NCBI GenBank assembly: GCA_945860275.1 | Contig: CAMAPN010000004.1 | Location: 1-64,000, forward strand | Source of the DNA: Bifidobacterium breve | Lineage (GTDB): Bacteria > Actinomycetota > Actinomycetes > Nanopelagicales > Nanopelagicaceae | Reading direction: 5' to 3' | DNA length: 64,000 nt | Shown here: positions 7,055-45,290 of the stretch, in pieces | How positions within the stretch are numbered: the stretch's first letter is position 1 | How the letters are laid out: each line of letters begins with the position of its first letter | Notes under the pieces: generated by a model | Database searches by the model: none | What the model was told of the DNA's origin: nothing | Seen by the model: the letters and a program-made list of their open reading frames with translations, nothing else | Made by a program: the position numbers and the translations under genes

Positions 7055-8107
7055 ATGCTTTCCGGCTCTCGTTTGGCGATAGACCGCGCCCTAGAGAACT
7101 TTCTGGCTGCCGCCTATAACGAACTAACCACCATCGATTCGCAGCTCACATCTATTGGTGGCGCACTTAGTGAATTCCTGATTGGAGGAAAGCGATTGCG
7201 CCCGCTTTTTGCCATTGCAGGTTTCCTTGGCGCTGGCGGCTCCCCCGACGATGAAGGCATCTACAAAGCTGCGGTGAGCTTGGAATTACTCCAGGCCTGC
7301 GCGCTAATTCACGACGACATGATGGATGGATCAGATACCAGGCGCGGGGCACCTTCAATGCATCGACGCTTCGAACGCAGCCACCGCGAACGTCACGGTG
7401 TTGGCGATAGTGAGAGCTTTGGCCACGCAACTGCGCTCCTAATCGGTGATCTTGCTCTCGTCTGGTCAACTCAAGCGCTCAATCTCTCAGGGCTCTCCCT
7501 CACGCAACTTCAGGCAGTCAATCCCATCTTCGACATCATGCGCGTAGAGCTGATGGCTGGCCAGTATCTGGATATGCACGGCGGTAGCCGCAATGAGATG
7601 ACCATAGATGATGCACTGAAGATTGCAACGTATAAATCTGGTAAGTACACAATTGAGCGTCCGTTACATTTTGGAGCCGCCCTATCTGGCGCCGGTGAGG
7701 ATTTCCTGCCGATCTATACCGAATATGGAATACCACTTGGAATTGCTTTCCAAATGCGAGATGACTTGCTTGGGGTGTTCGGTGATAGTTCTGTCACAGG
7801 TAAACCAGCAGGCGATGATCTGATTGAAGGAAAACGAACGGCTCTAATTGCCTACGCGCAGCAGAATCTTGCTACCAACGAACTGAATGAGTTCGTGAAG
7901 CTCTTTGGCCAGAAGAGCCTCACTCTTGATGAGATAAATGCCTTGCGCGAACTGATTCAACGGTCGGGGGCTGTCGATTTCATCGAGAAATTAATTGAAG
8001 AGAAAACTATCCTTGCCCTATCGGCAATCAAAGACCCGAAGATTTCACGCTCGGGTCGGGAATTTCTCTCAGAACTTGCGATAAAGGCAACACAAAGGAG
8101 CGCGTAA
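7055..8107 (+). CDS. crtE: Geranylgeranyl diphosphate synthase
   Basis: This trans-prenyltransferase of 350 residues has the first aspartate-rich motif D-D-M-M-D at residues 87-91 followed by T-R-R-G, a G-G-K-R-L-R-P block at 44-50, and the second motif in F-Q-M-R-D-D-L-L-G-V-F-G-D. It condenses IPP with allylic diphosphates to supply C20 units for phytoene. It opens the crtE-crtI-crtB operon; its TAA overlaps the crtI ATG by one base. The start is set by the TAGCGT box just upstream. Idi and a retinal-forming oxygenase are not in the window, so C40 carotenoid production is the clear purpose here. Confidence 0.93.
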   Translation: MLSGSRLAIDRALENFLAAAYNELTTIDSQLTSIGGALSEFLIGGKRLRPLFAIAGFLGAGGSPDDEGIYKAAVSLELLQACALIHDDMMDGSDTRRGAPSMHRRFERSHRERHGVGDSESFGHATALLIGDLALVWSTQALNLSGLSLTQLQAVNPIFDIMRVELMAGQYLDMHGGSRNEMTIDDALKIATYKSGKYTIERPLHFGAALSGAGEDFLPIYTEYGIPLGIAFQMRDDLLGVFGDSSVTGKPAGDDLIEGKRTALIAYAQQNLATNELNEFVKLFGQKSLTLDEINALRELIQRSGAVDFIEKLIEEKTILALSAIKDPKISRSGREFLSELAIKATQRSA

Positions 8108-9582
8108 TGCGAAAAGTCTCAGGACCTACCGACAAGGTGATTGTCGTTGGCGCCGGACTTGGCGGGTTGAGCGCAGCGCTCCGCTTAGCTGGCGCAGGTC
8201 GCGAGGTCACGATCGTGGAACGAGAGTCCGTTCCCGGTGGACGAAATGGCCTCATTGTCGATCAGGGTTATCGCTTCGATACTGGCCCGACCGTTCTCAC
8301 CATGCCCTCACTTATCGAAGAGGCGCTGGCCTCTGTCGGTGAGAAACTTTCAGATTGGCTAGAGCTGGTGCCGCTGCGCCCGCTCTATCGAGCGTTTTAT
8401 CACGATGGTTCCCAGCTTGATGTCTTTCCGAACACTGCCGAAATGGAAGAAGAGATCGCGCGTGTTATTGGACCAGATGAAGCGATGGGTTATCGAAAGT
8501 ATGTTGATTTTGTCACCAAGTTATACAAGTACGAGATGAACGACTTCATCGATCGAAATATTGATTCACCACTTCAGCTGCTCACTCCCAACTTGGCAAA
8601 ACTAATTGCAATTGGTGGCTTCCGTCGACTCGCGCCAAAAGTCAATCAATACCTAAAGGATCCACGAACTCAGAAGGTTTACTCCTTCCAGGCGATGTAT
8701 GCCGGAGTAAGTCCGCAGCAAGCTCTTGCAATCTATGCCGTGATTGCATACATGGATAGCGTCAATGGTGTTTTCTTTCCTAAAGGTGGGATGCATGCAC
8801 TACCTCGAGCGCTTGCAGGGGCGGCCGAAAAACATGGCGTGAAGATTCGGTATTCAACGACGGTTACAAGCGTTGCAATCAAGAACGGTCGTGCTACAGG
8901 TGTGCTCACTGATACTGGTGAACATATCCCAGGTGATGTTGTCGTGCTTAATCCAGATCTACCGATTGCCTACAAAGAGTTGCTTGATAGAGAGCCGCTG
9001 GATGTGAAACGTTTGAATTACTCGCCTTCATGTGTTGTCATGCTCGTTGGCTCGAATAAGAGCTATGACCACATTGCCCACCACAATATTCATTTTGGTC
9101 AATCGTGGGATGGCGTCTTCGAGGAATTAATCAAGAAGAAAACTTTTATGACTGATCCTTCGTTACTTGTGACAGTGCCAACCTATGATGACCCCTCGCT
9201 CGCACCAGCGGGCAAGTCCTCGTATTACGTGCTCTTTCCTACGCCGAACCTCAACTCCGCAATCGATTGGTCGAAAGAGCGCAATCGATATCGCGATGAG
9301 ATGGTGCGCACCCTTGAAGCGCGGGGCTATACCGACTTTGCGTCAGGCATCGAGGTGGAGCACCTCACGACTCCCGTTGAGTGGCGAGCACAAGGGATGG
9401 AGGCAGGCGCTCCCTTTGCTAGCGCGCATACCTTCTTCCAAACTGGCCCATTCCGGCCACGTAACCTTGCCCGAGGAATTGAGAATGTGGTCTTCACAGG
9501 CTCTGGCACACAACCGGGAGTGGGCGTTCCGATGGTGCTGATCTCTGGCAAATTAGCTGCAGAACGCATCATTGGTCGATGA
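8107..9582 (+). CDS. crtI: Phytoene desaturase
   Basis: The 491-residue FAD enzyme has the N-terminal fold G-A-G-L-G-G-L-S-A-A-L-R-L at residues 16-28, a G-Y-R-F-D-T-G-P-T-V-L segment near 55, and the bacterial CrtI C-terminal signature F-T-G-S-G-T-Q-P-G-V-G-V-P-M near 467-480. It converts phytoene to lycopene, probably in four desaturation steps at the membrane. It is flanked by crtE and crtB with 1- and 4-base overlaps. It is clearly paralogous to the desaturase at 4065, as the Rossmann segments are nearly the same, but its C-terminal block differs. Confidence 0.94.
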   Translation: MRKVSGPTDKVIVVGAGLGGLSAALRLAGAGREVTIVERESVPGGRNGLIVDQGYRFDTGPTVLTMPSLIEEALASVGEKLSDWLELVPLRPLYRAFYHDGSQLDVFPNTAEMEEEIARVIGPDEAMGYRKYVDFVTKLYKYEMNDFIDRNIDSPLQLLTPNLAKLIAIGGFRRLAPKVNQYLKDPRTQKVYSFQAMYAGVSPQQALAIYAVIAYMDSVNGVFFPKGGMHALPRALAGAAEKHGVKIRYSTTVTSVAIKNGRATGVLTDTGEHIPGDVVVLNPDLPIAYKELLDREPLDVKRLNYSPSCVVMLVGSNKSYDHIAHHNIHFGQSWDGVFEELIKKKTFMTDPSLLVTVPTYDDPSLAPAGKSSYYVLFPTPNLNSAIDWSKERNRYRDEMVRTLEARGYTDFASGIEVEHLTTPVEWRAQGMEAGAPFASAHTFFQTGPFRPRNLARGIENVVFTGSGTQPGVGVPMVLISGKLAAERIIGR

Positions 9583-10511
9583 GTACGCGGGAGTTAGATG
9601 CAGCTGGGATCTTCACCCCAGAGCTGCGCGCTTCATACGCCGAATGTAAACGGCTTAACTCACTCCATGGGAAAACGTATTACCTAGCCACCCTCCTGCT
9701 CCCACCCGAGAAGCGACCATTTGTGCACGCCCTCTACGGTTTCGCCCGCTACGCCGATGAGATAGTCGATGACCTTGCCTCAACGTTGAGCGCGAAAGAG
9801 AAAGAGAGCGCTCTTTCTACCTGGAGTGAACAAATTCTTAACGATCTGGCTAACGGTGTCAGTCATGACCATATCGGTGCAGCGCTCGTGGATACCGTGC
9901 AGCGATTCGATATTCCTATCGAACACTTTCGCGCATTTCTCCATTCGATGGCGATGGATATCTCAGTCTCTCGATACGACAGCTACGAAGATTTGTTGGA
10001 GTATGTCTACGGTTCTGCTGCAGTTATCGGACTGGAGATGGTGCCGATTTTAGGACCACTCTCGAGCGCGGCATACCCAGCAGCCGAGAAACTCGGTATC
10101 GCTTTTCAGCTTGCAAACTTCATTCGTGATGTCGGAGAAGATCTAGAGCGGGGGCGCATATATCTCCCGCTCGATGAATTGCGATCTTTTAATGTGAGCG
10201 AAGAGATGCTTATCGAGCGAGTGGTCACTCCACAATTGCGAGCAGCTCTCCGGTTCAATATTGAGCGAGTGCGTCAACTGCAACGTGAAGCGCAACCTGG
10301 GATCGCGCTGCTCGCGCCAGAAAGCCGTGCCTGTATCGAAGCAGCCAGTGAACTCTATTGTGGAATCGTGGATGAAGTAGAGAAGATTGATTACCAGATA
10401 TTTACTAAGCGAGCCAAGACTTCAACTACCCGACGTCTTGCAGTGGCTATTCCTGCGTTCTCCCGCGCTCTTGCTGCACGCCGCGCGCGCCCCAAAATAT
10501 CCACAAACTAA
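9579..10511 (+). CDS. crtB: Phytoene synthase
   Basis: The 310-residue protein has the squalene/phytoene synthase motifs: Y-G-F-A-R-Y-A-D-E-I-V-D-D near residue 50 with the first aspartate-rich site, and Q-L-A-N-F-I-R-D-V-G-E-D near 180 with the second, followed by R-G-R-I-Y-L-P. It joins two GGPP molecules head-to-head to make phytoene. The start overlaps crtI by four bases (ATGA). The last 65 bases, which encode the arginine/alanine-rich tail, also encode the end of the convergent crtYd. Confidence 0.94.
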   Translation: MSTRELDAAGIFTPELRASYAECKRLNSLHGKTYYLATLLLPPEKRPFVHALYGFARYADEIVDDLASTLSAKEKESALSTWSEQILNDLANGVSHDHIGAALVDTVQRFDIPIEHFRAFLHSMAMDISVSRYDSYEDLLEYVYGSAAVIGLEMVPILGPLSSAAYPAAEKLGIAFQLANFIRDVGEDLERGRIYLPLDELRSFNVSEEMLIERVVTPQLRAALRFNIERVRQLQREAQPGIALLAPESRACIEAASELYCGIVDEVEKIDYQIFTKRAKTSTTRRLAVAIPAFSRALAARRARPKISTN

Positions 10512-10770
10512 TTACACCAAGAATCAAAGCGAATCCAAAGAGGAGGTCTTCGATTGGCGCGCTTGCTATCCGTAATCCAGTGATAAATTCACCTCGATAC
10601 ATCACGATTTCTCGAGAGGTAAGCCACCAGTTAGTAAGCAACTGAAATGGCAAGATGATTGCATACGAAGTCCAAAATGCGCGGCGCAGAATCATTCGTC
10701 GTCGAGTAATGAATAGGTCAAAAAGAATTGCAACAGGAACCGCCATAAGTGCAAGCTGGGTGTAGCTCAT
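10447..10770 (-). CDS. crtYd: Lycopene cyclase subunit, CrtYd type
   Basis: The 107-residue membrane protein has three hydrophobic helices and the lycopene cyclase domain blocks F-Q-L-L-T-N-W-W-L-T near residue 42 and A-P-I-E-D-L-L-F-G-F near 72, with the glutamate/aspartate pair typical of the second subunit of heterodimeric CrtYc-CrtYd cyclases. With CrtYc it forms ionone rings on lycopene. It overlaps crtYc by four bases (ATGA). Its 3' end runs 65 bases into crtB on the other strand, so the C-terminal W-G-A-R-G-V tail and the CrtB tail constrain each other. Confidence 0.88.
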   Translation of the reverse strand: MSYTQLALMAVPVAILFDLFITRRRMILRRAFWTSYAIILPFQLLTNWWLTSREIVMYRGEFITGLRIASAPIEDLLFGFALILGVISLWIFWGARGVQQERGRTQE

Positions 10771-11108
10771 CGCTCGTCACCAAACTTCCATTTCTCATTT
10801 TTTCGCTTAACCACGCCCACTGCTTCGATAGTCATAATGGCAGCCAATGGCACCACAGTGAAGAAGAGAAATTCCTCGAGCGGAATCCCACCGAATCCGA
10901 ATATCCCTAAAATTTGCTCAGCATCAAAGTGCCAATGCCCCCTACTAATTGCGTAGAGATCCCAGATAATGAAAATGGATGCAACTGGAAGAATGCTTAA
11001 GAGCGCTCGTTTGATTCGTCGCAGGACACCAACCTTGAGGAATATTTCCAGCCAGAACGAACCCAGGATGGTAAAGGTAATCATCGCAAGATAGCCAAAC
11101 TTAAGCAC
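10767..11108 (-). CDS. crtYc: Lycopene cyclase subunit, CrtYc type
   Basis: The 113-residue protein has three or four membrane helices and the family blocks W-D-L-Y-A-I-S-R-G-H-W near residue 49 and I-P-L-E-E-F-L-F-F near 75, which hold the acidic residues thought to protonate lycopene. The heterodimer makes beta- or epsilon-rings and may act on one end only. That would leave the psi end free for CrtA, CruF and the glycosyltransferase. The start is GTG at 11108 with a TAGCAT box five bases upstream, divergent from the thiamine transporter. Its 1-2 kb separation from the tailoring genes suggests separate control of ring formation. Confidence 0.88.
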   Translation of the reverse strand: MLKFGYLAMITFTILGSFWLEIFLKVGVLRRIKRALLSILPVASIFIIWDLYAISRGHWHFDAEQILGIFGFGGIPLEEFLFFTVVPLAAIMTIEAVGVVKRKNEKWKFGDER

Positions 11109-11113
11109 GTCTA

Positions 11114-11123
11114 ATGCTATCCT
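11114..11123. promoter_or_regulatory. Divergent -10 elements for crtYc and the TPP riboswitch transcript
   Basis: TAGCAT on the minus strand (11119-11114) sits five bases before the crtYc GTG. TATCCT on the plus strand (11118-11123) would start an RNA near 11130, just where the TPP aptamer begins. The two boxes share two bases. Assignment rests on pattern and spacing only. Confidence 0.4.
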
Positions 11124-11130
11124 CTTACTT

Positions 11131-11211
11131 GCACGGGAGCCGAAGTACGGCTGAGAGGGTGGCTAGCCACCGACCGTTTTCACCAGTCCGGTAATGCGGA
11201 TTCGGAAGGAG
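11131..11211 (+). promoter_or_regulatory. TPP (thiamine diphosphate) riboswitch, THI element
   Basis: The conserved aptamer parts are present in order: a G-G-G-A-G-C-C strand near 11135, the pyrimidine-sensor segment CTGAGA at 11151-11156 followed by GGGTGG and its complement, then the pyrophosphate-sensor region with CCGGTAATGCGG at 11188-11199, closing at the purine-rich GGAAGGAG (11204-11211). That last strand is also the Shine-Dalgarno sequence of the following gene, so ligand binding would hide it and block translation. I see no separate terminator hairpin. This makes the downstream gene a thiamine-related transporter. Confidence 0.9.
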
Positions 11212-11223
11212 TAATTGAGATAT

Positions 11224-11811
11224 ATGTTTGATTTAATCCTTTTCACAGCATGGAGCTACCAGGTCTCATTGTTGGAGTTCACTGCAGCGGTCACTTCGTT
11301 GGTGGCCGTGTACTTGGGAACCACTGGACGTAAAATTATGTGGCCTTGGTGGATTGTGAGCTCGGCGCTCTATGCGATCTGGTTTCTTGATGCCAAGTAT
11401 TACGCCTCCGTTGCCACGCAACTCATCTTCGTAGCGTTTGGCGTATGGGGTTTACTCGCGTGGAAGAAAACAGGAGCGCAGCCTGCACCACTTTCTCTCA
11501 AGGGTCGGATTATCGTGGTGCTTGCCTTCGCCGCTTGTTGGCTAGCTTTTGCTCCTTACTTGAAGTCGGTAGGAGCGGTTGCAATCTGGAGCGATACCTT
11601 CGGTTTACTCGGAAGTCTGATTGCACAGGTCATTATGGTTAAAGAGAAGTGGGAGAACTGGGCGCTCTGGTTCGCAGTCGACATCGTGTTAACTATCCAA
11701 TACTTCCGTGGCGGCGCGTACTTCACCTCACTGGTCTATCTCGTCTTTACGGCAATCGCGATTCTCGGATGGGTACGTTGGTATAAGAATGCAACCCGCG
11801 CTATCAGTTAA
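11224..11811 (+). CDS. pnuT: PnuC-family transporter, probably thiamine-specific (PnuT)
   Basis: The 195-residue protein has seven closely packed hydrophobic helices and PnuC-family features such as W-x-V-S-S-A-L-Y near residue 44, a K-E-K-W-E-N-W pair near 142, and the end block A-I-L-G-W-V-R-W-Y. PnuC carriers move vitamins by facilitated diffusion, with trapping by phosphorylation inside. The TPP riboswitch directly upstream marks thiamine rather than nicotinamide riboside as substrate. ATG 11224 lies 12 bases after the riboswitch-embedded GGAAGGAG; a TTG at 11215 is too close to it. The next gene begins 23 bases before this one ends, so the two are co-expressed. Confidence 0.85.
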   Translation: MFDLILFTAWSYQVSLLEFTAAVTSLVAVYLGTTGRKIMWPWWIVSSALYAIWFLDAKYYASVATQLIFVAFGVWGLLAWKKTGAQPAPLSLKGRIIVVLAFAACWLAFAPYLKSVGAVAIWSDTFGLLGSLIAQVIMVKEKWENWALWFAVDIVLTIQYFRGGAYFTSLVYLVFTAIAILGWVRWYKNATRAIS

Positions 11812-12355
11812 TATCCGCGAACTTCTGAGCGCTAAGAGTGAGAGCTCATCGCCGGTATTCATCGTGATTGATGGTCCTGCCGGAGCTGGCAAGACAACGC
11901 TCGCGGCGGAAATTATCGAAACTATTGGACTTGGCGAGGTAATTCACTGCGATGATCTCTATAACGGCTGGGATGACGCACTCACACCCACCCTTGAGCG
12001 AACTATCAGAGAACAAATCATCACGCCTATATCCGATAAAGCGCCAATCCATTATCGAAAGTACGACTGGGTTGCAGGAGGTTATGGCCAAATGATCTCA
12101 CTTGGGCCAACGCCACTGATTATTCTTGAAGGGGTCGGCTGTGCACTGCCGAGCGTTACAAAGTTGGCAGATCTCTCAATTTGGATGGATATTCCTTTTG
12201 ACCTGGGACTTGAACGGGTAGTCAAACGTGATGGAGCTGGGATTCGAAAGGAGATGTTGGTGTGGATTGCGCGCCAAAATGAGTTTTTTGCTGAGAATAG
12301 GAATCGAGAGAATTGCGCAATACACCTTCCCTACGGAGCGCCTGCTCAGCCATAA
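11789..12355 (+). CDS. Small P-loop kinase (uridine kinase-like), coupled to pnuT
   Basis: This 188-residue protein has a Walker A loop G-P-A-G-A-G-K-T-T at residues 29-37, an acidic strand end I-H-C-D-D-L-Y-N-G-W near 55 like uridine kinases, and a lid-like R-D-G-A-G-I-R segment near 150. It is the size of nucleoside and small-metabolite kinases. It starts inside pnuT and has no promoter of its own in view, so the TPP riboswitch probably controls it. PnuC-type carriers need a kinase to trap substrate, so it may phosphorylate thiamine or a precursor. That is inference; a nucleoside kinase with no thiamine role is the main alternative. Confidence 0.65.
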   Translation: MQPALSVNIRELLSAKSESSSPVFIVIDGPAGAGKTTLAAEIIETIGLGEVIHCDDLYNGWDDALTPTLERTIREQIITPISDKAPIHYRKYDWVAGGYGQMISLGPTPLIILEGVGCALPSVTKLADLSIWMDIPFDLGLERVVKRDGAGIRKEMLVWIARQNEFFAENRNRENCAIHLPYGAPAQP

Positions 12356-12368
12356 GGGGCGCTCTTCA

Positions 12369-12374
12369 TAGAAT
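12369..12374 (+). promoter_or_regulatory. Candidate -10 element for the PASTA kinase gene
   Basis: TAGAAT is followed by six bases and then GTG 12381, the same grammar as other starts in this window. It implies a leaderless mRNA. The same hexamer and spacing precede the gene at 55772 on the minus strand. Confidence 0.5.
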
Positions 12375-12380
12375 TTCAGA

Positions 12381-14300
12381 GTGTCGGAGCGAATTGGCGA
12401 ACTCATTGATGGGCGCTATCAGATAACTAGCGCCATCTCTCGCGGTGGAATGGCCACAGTCTATTCTGCCGTTGATACCCGACTTGATCGAACAGTCGCT
12501 GTGAAAATCATGCACGAAAACCTTGCGCGCGATGAGGAATTTGTCTCGCGTTTTATTCGTGAAGCTAAAGCTGCCGCAGGTTTATCTCATCCCAACTTAG
12601 TTCAAGTCTACGACCAAGGATGGAATCAAGGTGGGGTTCCTGCAGTCTTCCTGGTCATGGAGTACATACCTGGAGCGACGCTGCGCGACCATCTTTTTGC
12701 TGTTGGTCAACTAGGTGCAAAGGAAGCGTTGGAGATCATCAATCAAGTTCTTTCGGCTCTTACCTACGCTCATCATGGCGGAATCATTCATCGCGATATC
12801 AAACCTGAGAACATCATGATTACTGCTGATGGCCGGGCAAAACTTGGCGATTTCGGATTAGCTCGGGCAGTCAGCACCGGAAATACCCTCACCGCTGATG
12901 CAAATGTTTTGATGGGCACAGTGGCATACCTTGCCCCTGAGCAAGTCCAACGTGGCATCGCTGATGTGAAGAGCGACATCTATTCGCTGGGAATTGTGCT
13001 CTTTGAAATGCTCACAGGTAAGAAACCTTACGAAGGTGACTCCCCTATTCAAATTGCATATCGCCACGTCCATGATCGAGTGCCTGCTCCCTCGACACTC
13101 AATCACGCAATAACCCGCGATCTCGATTCCTTAGTGCTGCACGCAACAGCTCCAGATCCTGGTTTGCGCTATCAAAGCGCCCGAGAATTCCAAGAAGATA
13201 TTCGCAAATCTTTGCTCTTGCTCGATCCCAATGAACAGCAATTGAGTTTGCCACTTGGCATCCCGGAGGAGCTGCGGCGGCCAGTACGAACTGCCAAAAC
13301 TAAGCGCGAGAAATCCCTCGGCGCTAAGGTGAATGCACAAGAGGCCAAGCCAGAGATAAGTCGTCCGCGAATGAGCAATACCAGCGAAATCAGAAGGAGA
13401 ACTTCTCGGAGAGTGCGCCGTAATCGTCTCATCGCACTGGCGATTGCTGGTGTCATTGGCATCACCGGTTGGTATCAGCTCTTTGGTCCGGGTGCACAGA
13501 TTGCTATCCCCTCTGTGGTCGGTGGAACGAAGAAAGAGGCTGAACGCACCTTAGAAAAACTTGGCTTTGACATCACAGTTGCTAAATCTGTCTTCGATGA
13601 ACAGATTCCAAAAGGGAAGATCATAAGCATGTCTCCCCCTGCGGGAAGCAGAGTGTCCGAGGGTGAACGAATTTCGGTAGTGCTCTCTAAGGGAGCGGAG
13701 CGATACAAGGTACCTAGCCTCAAAGGTAAGAGCATCTCGCAAGCCACAATTGAATTAGCGAATGTGAAATTGGTGATTGGTTCGGCGCAAAGTCAATTTG
13801 ATCTCAAGATTCCAAAGGACCAGATAATTTCAACCTCGCCGGCTCCAGGAACCATGGTCAAGAAAAATACCCAGGTCAACCTTCTGGTCAGTAAAGGACC
13901 AGAGCTGGTGGCTATCGCCAATTATGTGGGCAAGTCGAGTGAGCAAGCGCTCAACGAGTTAACTGATGCAGGCTTTGATGTTAAGCAGAGCGATGAGTTC
14001 AGCGATAAATTCCCAATGGGAATTGTTATCGCACAGAACCCGACTGATCCAGAACTTACCAAGGGAGCGCAGGTCTCGCTCACAATCTCAAAGGGTCCTG
14101 AAAAGATAAAAGTTCCATCTGGAATCCTCAAGAGCGAAGAAGGTAAAGCGATCAAGCTTCTCGAGGATTATGGCTTCAGCGTAAAAGTTCTAAAGCCTGC
14201 CAAGGTGGCAAAGGGAAAGAAGTTGATTGTCATCAAGGTCAACCCCGCTGAGGGCGCACTTGTGAAGCGTAATTCTGTAATAACCATCGAAGTGAAGTAG
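12381..14300 (+). CDS. pknL: Membrane Ser/Thr protein kinase with four PASTA domains (PknL-like by context)
   Basis: The kinase domain covers about residues 10-270: glycine loop I-S-R-G-G-M-A-T-V, V-A-V-K near 38, H-R-D-I-K-P-E-N near 135, D-F-G near 157 and A-P-E-Q near 189. A basic linker leads to one membrane helix (about 348-368), then four extracytoplasmic PASTA repeats of about 67 residues, each with a G-x(n)-A/E-x-L pattern and a closing S-K-G. PASTA domains sense muropeptides or lipid II and tune cell wall growth. It lies between a GGPP synthase locus and DAHP synthase, as Mycobacterium pknL does, though mycobacterial PknL lacks PASTA repeats while the Corynebacterium protein has them. 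Confidence 0.9.
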   Translation: MSERIGELIDGRYQITSAISRGGMATVYSAVDTRLDRTVAVKIMHENLARDEEFVSRFIREAKAAAGLSHPNLVQVYDQGWNQGGVPAVFLVMEYIPGATLRDHLFAVGQLGAKEALEIINQVLSALTYAHHGGIIHRDIKPENIMITADGRAKLGDFGLARAVSTGNTLTADANVLMGTVAYLAPEQVQRGIADVKSDIYSLGIVLFEMLTGKKPYEGDSPIQIAYRHVHDRVPAPSTLNHAITRDLDSLVLHATAPDPGLRYQSAREFQEDIRKSLLLLDPNEQQLSLPLGIPEELRRPVRTAKTKREKSLGAKVNAQEAKPEISRPRMSNTSEIRRRTSRRVRRNRLIALAIAGVIGITGWYQLFGPGAQIAIPSVVGGTKKEAERTLEKLGFDITVAKSVFDEQIPKGKIISMSPPAGSRVSEGERISVVLSKGAERYKVPSLKGKSISQATIELANVKLVIGSAQSQFDLKIPKDQIISTSPAPGTMVKKNTQVNLLVSKGPELVAIANYVGKSSEQALNELTDAGFDVKQSDEFSDKFPMGIVIAQNPTDPELTKGAQVSLTISKGPEKIKVPSGILKSEEGKAIKLLEDYGFSVKVLKPAKVAKGKKLIVIKVNPAEGALVKRNSVITIEVK

Positions 14301-44249: not shown

Positions 44250-45185
44250 CTACCAGTGCCATGACGTGCCCTGAAACGGCAATGGTTTACCGAAGTACGT
44301 AATCTCATCACCCGTAACAACTGTGCCAAGCATAATCCATGATTCTGGCGTTCCGGATTGCCACTTGCTGTCAACTACCACTACAAATGAGTGCTCCTCA
44401 CCACTTCGCAGGAATAGCTCCAGCGGTGGGATCGCTAACTTCTCGGATAGCGACTCGAGGAAACTCAACTCTTTCTCATCAATCGTTAGGTCGATACCAA
44501 CTCTGGATGCCTTTGCGATTTTAGGTAAATCTGAGAGCAAGCCATCACTAACATCCATCAGCGCATTAATTTTCTCAAAACCAAATTCAATTAAATCATG
44601 CGGATCAAATTCAGGACGTTGGAATGCTCGCACGTCAGGAGAATCTGAGCTCGCTAATCCTTTACTCAGCAGCAACAATCCAGCCAGAGATCTTCCGGTA
44701 GCGCGCGTAAGAAATATTTTGTCACCAACTTTTGCACCGGAGCGGAGCACTGGAGCTTTGACAGACCCAAGAGCAGTGATAGCTATGGTCAATGTTTTAC
44801 CCGCTACCAAATCTCCCCCTACAACGCTGACGTCAAAATCTTTGGCAACTGATTCGATACCGCGGGCAATGTCCAATAAGTACGACACCTCTTCGTCACC
44901 TGGCGCTGAAATTGCCACGATAAGAAACTTCGGCACTCCGCCCATTGCGACGATATCTCCAAGGTTTGCAATGGCAATTTTTGCTCCGATATCTGTTGCA
45001 CTCGACCATGAACGATTGAAGTGGATTCCATCCGTTGCCATGTCGGCACTTATAACCTCTAGCGCAGATGTAGATTCGATGATTGCACCATCGTCGCCTA
45101 TTCCGACCGACACCCCGGCTCGGGAGCGGTAGATCTCAGCAAAGGCGGCTATTAAGGCCTCTTCGCCCATATCGCGAACCCGCAC
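44250..45185 (-). CDS. thiL: Thiamine-monophosphate kinase
   Basis: The protein has ThiL features: G-E-E-A-L-I at the N-terminus, the first metal site V-G-I-G-D-D-G-A, S-A-D-M-A-T-D-G-I-H-F, V-V-G-G-D-L-V-A-G, and D-V-S-D-G-L-L-S-D-L. It phosphorylates thiamine monophosphate to TPP. I chose GTG 45185 because a G-G-A-G-G-A-G lies immediately upstream and the result matches the family's N-terminus; TTG 45218 and ATG 45170 are alternatives. With the TPP-controlled transporter at 11224 it shows that the cell can finish TPP from thiamine or its monophosphate. It is divergent from the Lrp-type gene. Confidence 0.9.
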   Translation of the reverse strand: MRVRDMGEEALIAAFAEIYRSRAGVSVGIGDDGAIIESTSALEVISADMATDGIHFNRSWSSATDIGAKIAIANLGDIVAMGGVPKFLIVAISAPGDEEVSYLLDIARGIESVAKDFDVSVVGGDLVAGKTLTIAITALGSVKAPVLRSGAKVGDKIFLTRATGRSLAGLLLLSKGLASSDSPDVRAFQRPEFDPHDLIEFGFEKINALMDVSDGLLSDLPKIAKASRVGIDLTIDEKELSFLESLSEKLAIPPLELFLRSGEEHSFVVVVDSKWQSGTPESWIMLGTVVTGDEITYFGKPLPFQGTSWHW

Positions 45186-45290
45186 GGTCTCCTCCAGCTT
45201 TGCGCTTGCGCCATACAACTAACTTTCCGCCCGAGCCTATCCTGCGCTACCTTTGCTCCACATCAGCACAGCAAAAGGGGCGAAATACCA

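Follow-up and report, generated by a model that had tools for sequence, protein, structure and literature searches.

Carriers of the PnuC type are believed to admit their substrate by facilitated diffusion, and phosphorylation then traps it in the cell. The conversion of thiamine to thiamine monophosphate (TMP) with ATP, upstream of ThiL, is known for ThiK of Escherichia coli (YcfN; TIGR02721), which is an APH/choline-kinase-type protein. In Bacteroides thetaiotaomicron, a TPP riboswitch is followed in one operon by pnuT and tnr3 (PMC5613172). In acI genomes a PnuT under the control of a THI element has been predicted, and the acI bacteria were stated to be thiamine auxotrophs in which nearly all enzymes of the de novo and salvage pathways are missing (Kang et al., 2017; PMC5301498).

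The locus described here, found in a window of 64,000 nucleotides (the whole stretch of DNA that was analysed), resembles the Bacteroides operon in having a TPP riboswitch, a PnuC-type thiamine carrier and then a thiamine-phosphorylating enzyme, here a proposed one. The Bacteroides enzyme is an annotated thiamine pyrophosphokinase (TPK)-type Tnr3, whereas the protein in this position has a predicted uridine-kinase fold and a separate second step would be carried out by ThiL. The acI report contains the same riboswitch and transporter, but the kinase is unnamed there (PMC5301498), and a search of the open literature, with most subscription journals outside its scope, found no papers naming this kinase, a new thiamine kinase or PRK06547. 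The arrangement is already known; what fills the kinase slot is a candidate new enzyme family. On the evidence of genome context, it is probable that this protein is a thiamine kinase, forming TMP from thiamine in a thiamine salvage operon governed by a TPP riboswitch, with ThiL finishing the synthesis of TPP. This is the ThiK reaction. The features concerned are:

11123–11223, forward strand: TPP riboswitch aptamer, divergent (RF00059, 40.7 bits, E 4e-6; below the Rfam gathering score)
11224–11811, forward strand: PnuC-family transporter of 195 aa, predicted thiamine carrier PnuT (PF04973, E 2.9e-36)
11789–12355, forward strand: P-loop kinase of 188 aa with uridine-kinase fold, proposed thiamine kinase (Pfam, NCBIfam, AlphaFold2, Foldseek, gene linkage)
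44250–45218, reverse strand: ThiL, thiamine-monophosphate kinase, proposed next step (TIGR01379, 201 bits, cut-off 184.15)

The aptamer was matched at full length (model positions 1–105) in a search of 1.6 kb. Since its score falls under the curated gathering score of RF00059, 54.3, a default Rfam scan lists only tRNAs in the window. Most genomes of the family have a match of 30–45 bits at the corresponding position upstream of pnuT; CTGAGA and TAATGC are conserved cores among these relatives, the former lying 66–107 nt ahead of the pnuT match in all 50 of 50 family pairs, and compensatory changes are seen at 10 of 19 consensus pairs in 41 aligned sequences. Shared position, the CTGAGA core and covariation place the predicted riboswitch beyond a chance match, in keeping with the original prediction. 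It is the sole TPP riboswitch found in the window's genome, the assembly of which comprises 1.3 Mb in 61 contigs and is 92% complete. The aptamer match has AAGGAG (11206–11211) at its 3′ end, just ahead of the pnuT start, so that this ribosome site may be hidden when TPP binds. On this view TPP would switch the expression of pnuT.

The match of the transporter to PF04973 extends across the whole protein, which bears out its earlier recognition as PnuC-type, and the PnuC structure 4qtn in the PDB is also matched (E 4e-5). Thiamine is its predicted substrate in view of the TPP riboswitch and of auxotrophy, and its acI homologues have been predicted as PnuT (PMC5301498). The kinase gene overlaps pnuT by 23 nt (11789–11811), just as first described, and a search of the stretch from the riboswitch to the start of the kinase turned up nothing resembling a promoter, in agreement with the view that the kinase has no promoter of its own. 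The overlap suggests translational coupling of the two genes.

The kinase has the Walker A sequence GPAGAGKTT. In Pfam it scores 26.2 bits against the PRK/uridine kinase family PF00485, just over the cut-off of 22. The best NCBIfam model is NF005115/PRK06547 (E 1.1e-30), a ‘hypothetical protein’ model with no assigned function, whose cut-off of 173 bits it misses with a score of 106. It falls short of the uridine kinase equivalogs TIGR00235 (35.8 bits, cut-off 220) and PRK05480 (39.3 bits, cut-off 180). The TPK domain PF04263 is absent among its 25 best Pfam matches and the ThiK model TIGR02721 among its 25 best NCBIfam matches. In a Foldseek search with the AlphaFold2 model (pLDDT 94.2) the best match was uridine-cytidine kinase 2 (E 7e-10), and the nearest solved folds were human and Thermus uridine-cytidine kinases. 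Searching with a profile built from the kinase family brought in 1rz3 (E 1e-17), nicotinamide riboside kinase 1 (E 9e-8) and uridine kinases. With uridine-cytidine kinase and nicotinamide riboside kinase 1 (PF00485) the protein shares the predicted fold, Walker A, catalytic-type D55 and Y58, an EG motif and an R-x3-RD lid; among 43 aligned members the Walker A core, D55, Y58, W61, W94, E114, R143, R147 and D148 are invariant. In contrast, the kinase profile alignment contains no equivalent of the NYDHPDAFD stretch seen in the Thermus uridine kinase, the invariant W61 and W94 being present instead. Pfam score and predicted fold place the protein in the PRK/uridine kinase superfamily. It differs in this from ThiK, and by sequence comparison it is unrelated to either ThiK or TPK.

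The distribution of the locus was studied in 61 genomes of the family, the window's own included. A scan with the single kinase protein gave three near relatives only. Kinase homologues are found in 55 of the 61, and in 50 of these pnuT, led by the riboswitch, is directly upstream; measured from the pnuT stop, the candidate kinase starts in these genomes lie at −34 to +6 nt. One further kinase lies at the very beginning of its contig (G006), its upstream region cut off, and in the remaining four genomes (G007, G014, G024 and G035) the kinase stands without pnuT between crtB and pknB. Because the family keeps crtB-[..]-kinase-pknB together in this order as one conserved unit, the adjacency of kinase and pnuT within it is not independent evidence. 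In a second family (f39), one genome, G190, has riboswitch, pnuT and kinase in the same order amid unrelated neighbour genes, so that the original call for other riboswitch-PnuT-kinase sets was answered both within the family and beyond it.

Just upstream of the riboswitch (7055–11108 of the window) is a carotenoid cluster consisting of crtE, crtI, crtB and two small lycopene-cyclase-type ORFs, and crtB is at the same place in nearly all family loci. The crtI and crtB genes of G014 are separated by an insertion that encodes a CytX/CodB-like permease and a deaminase (locus L046, 1198–3093). Downstream, a PASTA-type Ser/Thr protein kinase gene (pknB-like; 12355–14300 of the window) starts 25 nt past the kinase candidate; wherever a family locus extends far enough, this gene nearly always has the kinase or thiG as its neighbour, and it may share the riboswitch-led transcript. 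One contig filed under ‘Candidatus Fonsibacter lacus’, an alphaproteobacterium (L031; RFXN01000026.1), carries the actinobacterial locus with 62–86% protein identity and is probably from a misassigned or contaminated MAG.

ThiL, placed at 44250 in the original prediction and confirmed there above the cut-off of its model, is found in 58 of the 61 family genomes. The known sources of its substrate are scarce. Full ThiE is present in just six of the 61; partial ThiE-like matches in several others (profile positions 84–180, E 1e-5 to 7e-4) were too short and weak to be counted. The suggested search for a TPK elsewhere in the window's genome found none (PF04263), nor was one found across the family genomes. 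Class-level matches to PF04263 cover only profile positions 6–45 of 113, in ORFs of about 400 aa, and were not counted as TPKs; such an ORF, its similarity confined to the first third of the catalytic profile, recurs in G066–G096 and is not a TPK. ThiK (TIGR02721) is not found above cut-off in any family genome, or at E 1e-3 in that of the window, and several complete kinase-bearing genomes (G005, G019, G021 and G030) have no match to the model at all. Weak ThiK matches are found in the kinase-less G009 and G034 too. An APH protein in the window's genome (G000:C9) adjoins a glycolate-oxidase-like gene rather than thiamine genes. With no TPK, no ThiK-level match and ThiE so rare, ThiL needs a source of TMP other than these enzymes.

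The kinase is absent from six family genomes: G056, which is 60% complete, and five of the six that carry ThiE (G009, G017, G023, G034 and G045). The sixth ThiE genome, G007, has both. The two-by-two table of kinase and ThiE in the 61 genomes (1, 54, 5, 1) gives a Fisher p of 6e-6 when shared ancestry is ignored; the ThiE-linked absences are confined to genera g6 and g14 and represent perhaps one or two events. In G009 and G017 a riboswitch and thiO-thiG stand before pknB, where relatives have pnuT and the kinase, with thiE divergent (L077, L078), a layout which suggests that thiamine synthesis and thiamine import were exchanged for one another in a single step. A riboswitch-led CytX-like permease is found in G009, G023, G034 and G045; from their family we take these permeases to be importers of HMP rather than of thiamine. 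The riboswitches that were read in the kinase-less ThiE genomes lead to genes other than pnuT, and ThiB is absent there. The four kinase genomes lacking pnuT, on the other hand, are the only four in the family with ThiB above cut-off, and ThiB was read directly behind a TPP riboswitch in three of them (G007, G014 and G035), the gene in G024 being cut by the contig end. The same contrast is seen in f39, where G190 has the kinase and no ThiE, and G200 has ThiE and no kinase. The kinase thus accompanies pnuT in 50 family genomes and ThiB in four, and ThiE carriers are mostly without it. In this way it tracks thiamine import: within the family, importers of thiamine have the kinase, and genomes that make thiamine and do not visibly import it lack it.

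These observations fit together in the following scheme. At low TPP, pnuT would be translated, and the overlapping kinase probably along with it. Thiamine would enter through PnuT by facilitated diffusion, and the kinase would use ATP to convert it to TMP (EC 2.7.1.89 activity), which would trap it in the cell. TMP would then feed ThiL for the formation of TPP, and high TPP would close the riboswitch.

In the class as a whole, a profile search found kinase homologues in 193 of 297 genomes. No association with the absence of ThiE is seen at this level (127/66/73/31, p 0.52), and neither pnuT, ThiE nor ThiG was found near the kinase in the other class loci that were fetched, G190 excepted; matches to ABC ATPases near class homologues are not specific and were not counted as thiamine genes. 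One genome from another family, G088, lacks ThiE and has both riboswitch-thiBPQ and a kinase homologue. In the tree, one weakly supported branch (74/29) separates the thiamine-linked rows from the rest, with G190, G088 and G136 closest to where the two parts join. G086 has ThiB, no ThiE and no kinase homologue at E 1e-10, so that another thiamine route must exist somewhere in the class. Two findings had been named in advance as together counting against the original prediction, homologues mostly away from thiamine genes and the presence of a TPK; the former holds outside the two families, and no TPK was found. Tree and class distribution fit a general actinobacterial thiamine kinase and, equally well, a family with several substrates. 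It is conceivable, though we hold it only tentatively, that the family is the general, hitherto unassigned thiamine kinase of Actinomycetes, which have ThiL and no TPK. It would then be a third way of phosphorylating thiamine, unrelated to the other two and possessed by some two thirds of the class, and the pnuT-linked members in a Nanopelagicales-like lineage would be the giveaway.

The class distribution, with homologues widespread away from thiamine genes and unassociated with ThiE, would also suit a nucleoside or nucleotide kinase with a housekeeping role in actinobacteria. Such a gene would happen to lie in a conserved block and be transcribed by read-through from the riboswitch operon, and another enzyme, such as an APH-type protein, would phosphorylate thiamine. 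The uridine-kinase-like fold and profile, the conserved crtB..pknB block and the APH protein in the window's genome are compatible with this. It is nevertheless unlikely, for riboswitch, pnuT and kinase recur together in another context in G190, genomes with thiO-thiG at the locus have lost the kinase whereas those with ThiB in place of pnuT have retained it, and the family offers no ThiK-level match to take over the reaction, with G005, G019, G021 and G030 lacking any.

Two other proposals keep the protein in thiamine metabolism and change its reaction. An analogue of TPK, making TPP directly from thiamine, would suit the operon slot, as pnuT is paired in Bacteroides with the TPK-type gene tnr3 (PMC5613172), and ThiL would then be retained for some other reason; the conservation of ThiL in 58 of 61 genomes, though ThiE is in just six, and a fold that is that of monophosphorylating kinases make this quite improbable. 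Alternatively the substrate might be a precursor or breakdown product such as HMP, aminoHMP or hydroxyethylthiazole. TPP-riboswitch operons often carry precursor salvage, CytX-type permeases stand behind riboswitches in kinase-less relatives, and HMP and hydroxyethylthiazole were named beside thiamine in the original prediction of a new kinase family. ThiE, which joins HMP-PP and thiazole phosphate, is however absent from 54 of 55 kinase-bearing family genomes, in which TPP could not be made from such precursors, and the ThiE-positive, HMP-importing genomes are without the kinase; a precursor substrate is likewise quite improbable. The context upholds a new thiamine-related kinase, and with ThiE lacking, thiamine is favoured over HMP and hydroxyethylthiazole.

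If the kinase phosphorylates thiamine, an annotation could be given to proteins that at present go under the names hypothetical or uridine kinase, the gene would mark genomes that import thiamine rather than salvage its precursors, and another non-homologous enzyme would have been recruited to the PnuC-type arrangement of uptake and trapping. The shared pnuC-plus-THI element suggests that the window belongs to acI (Nanopelagicales), in which case the finding bears on bacteria that outnumber all others in many lakes. These are predicted thiamine auxotrophs, and the published reconstruction has a gap between imported thiamine and ThiL, which one protein of 188 aa would fill.
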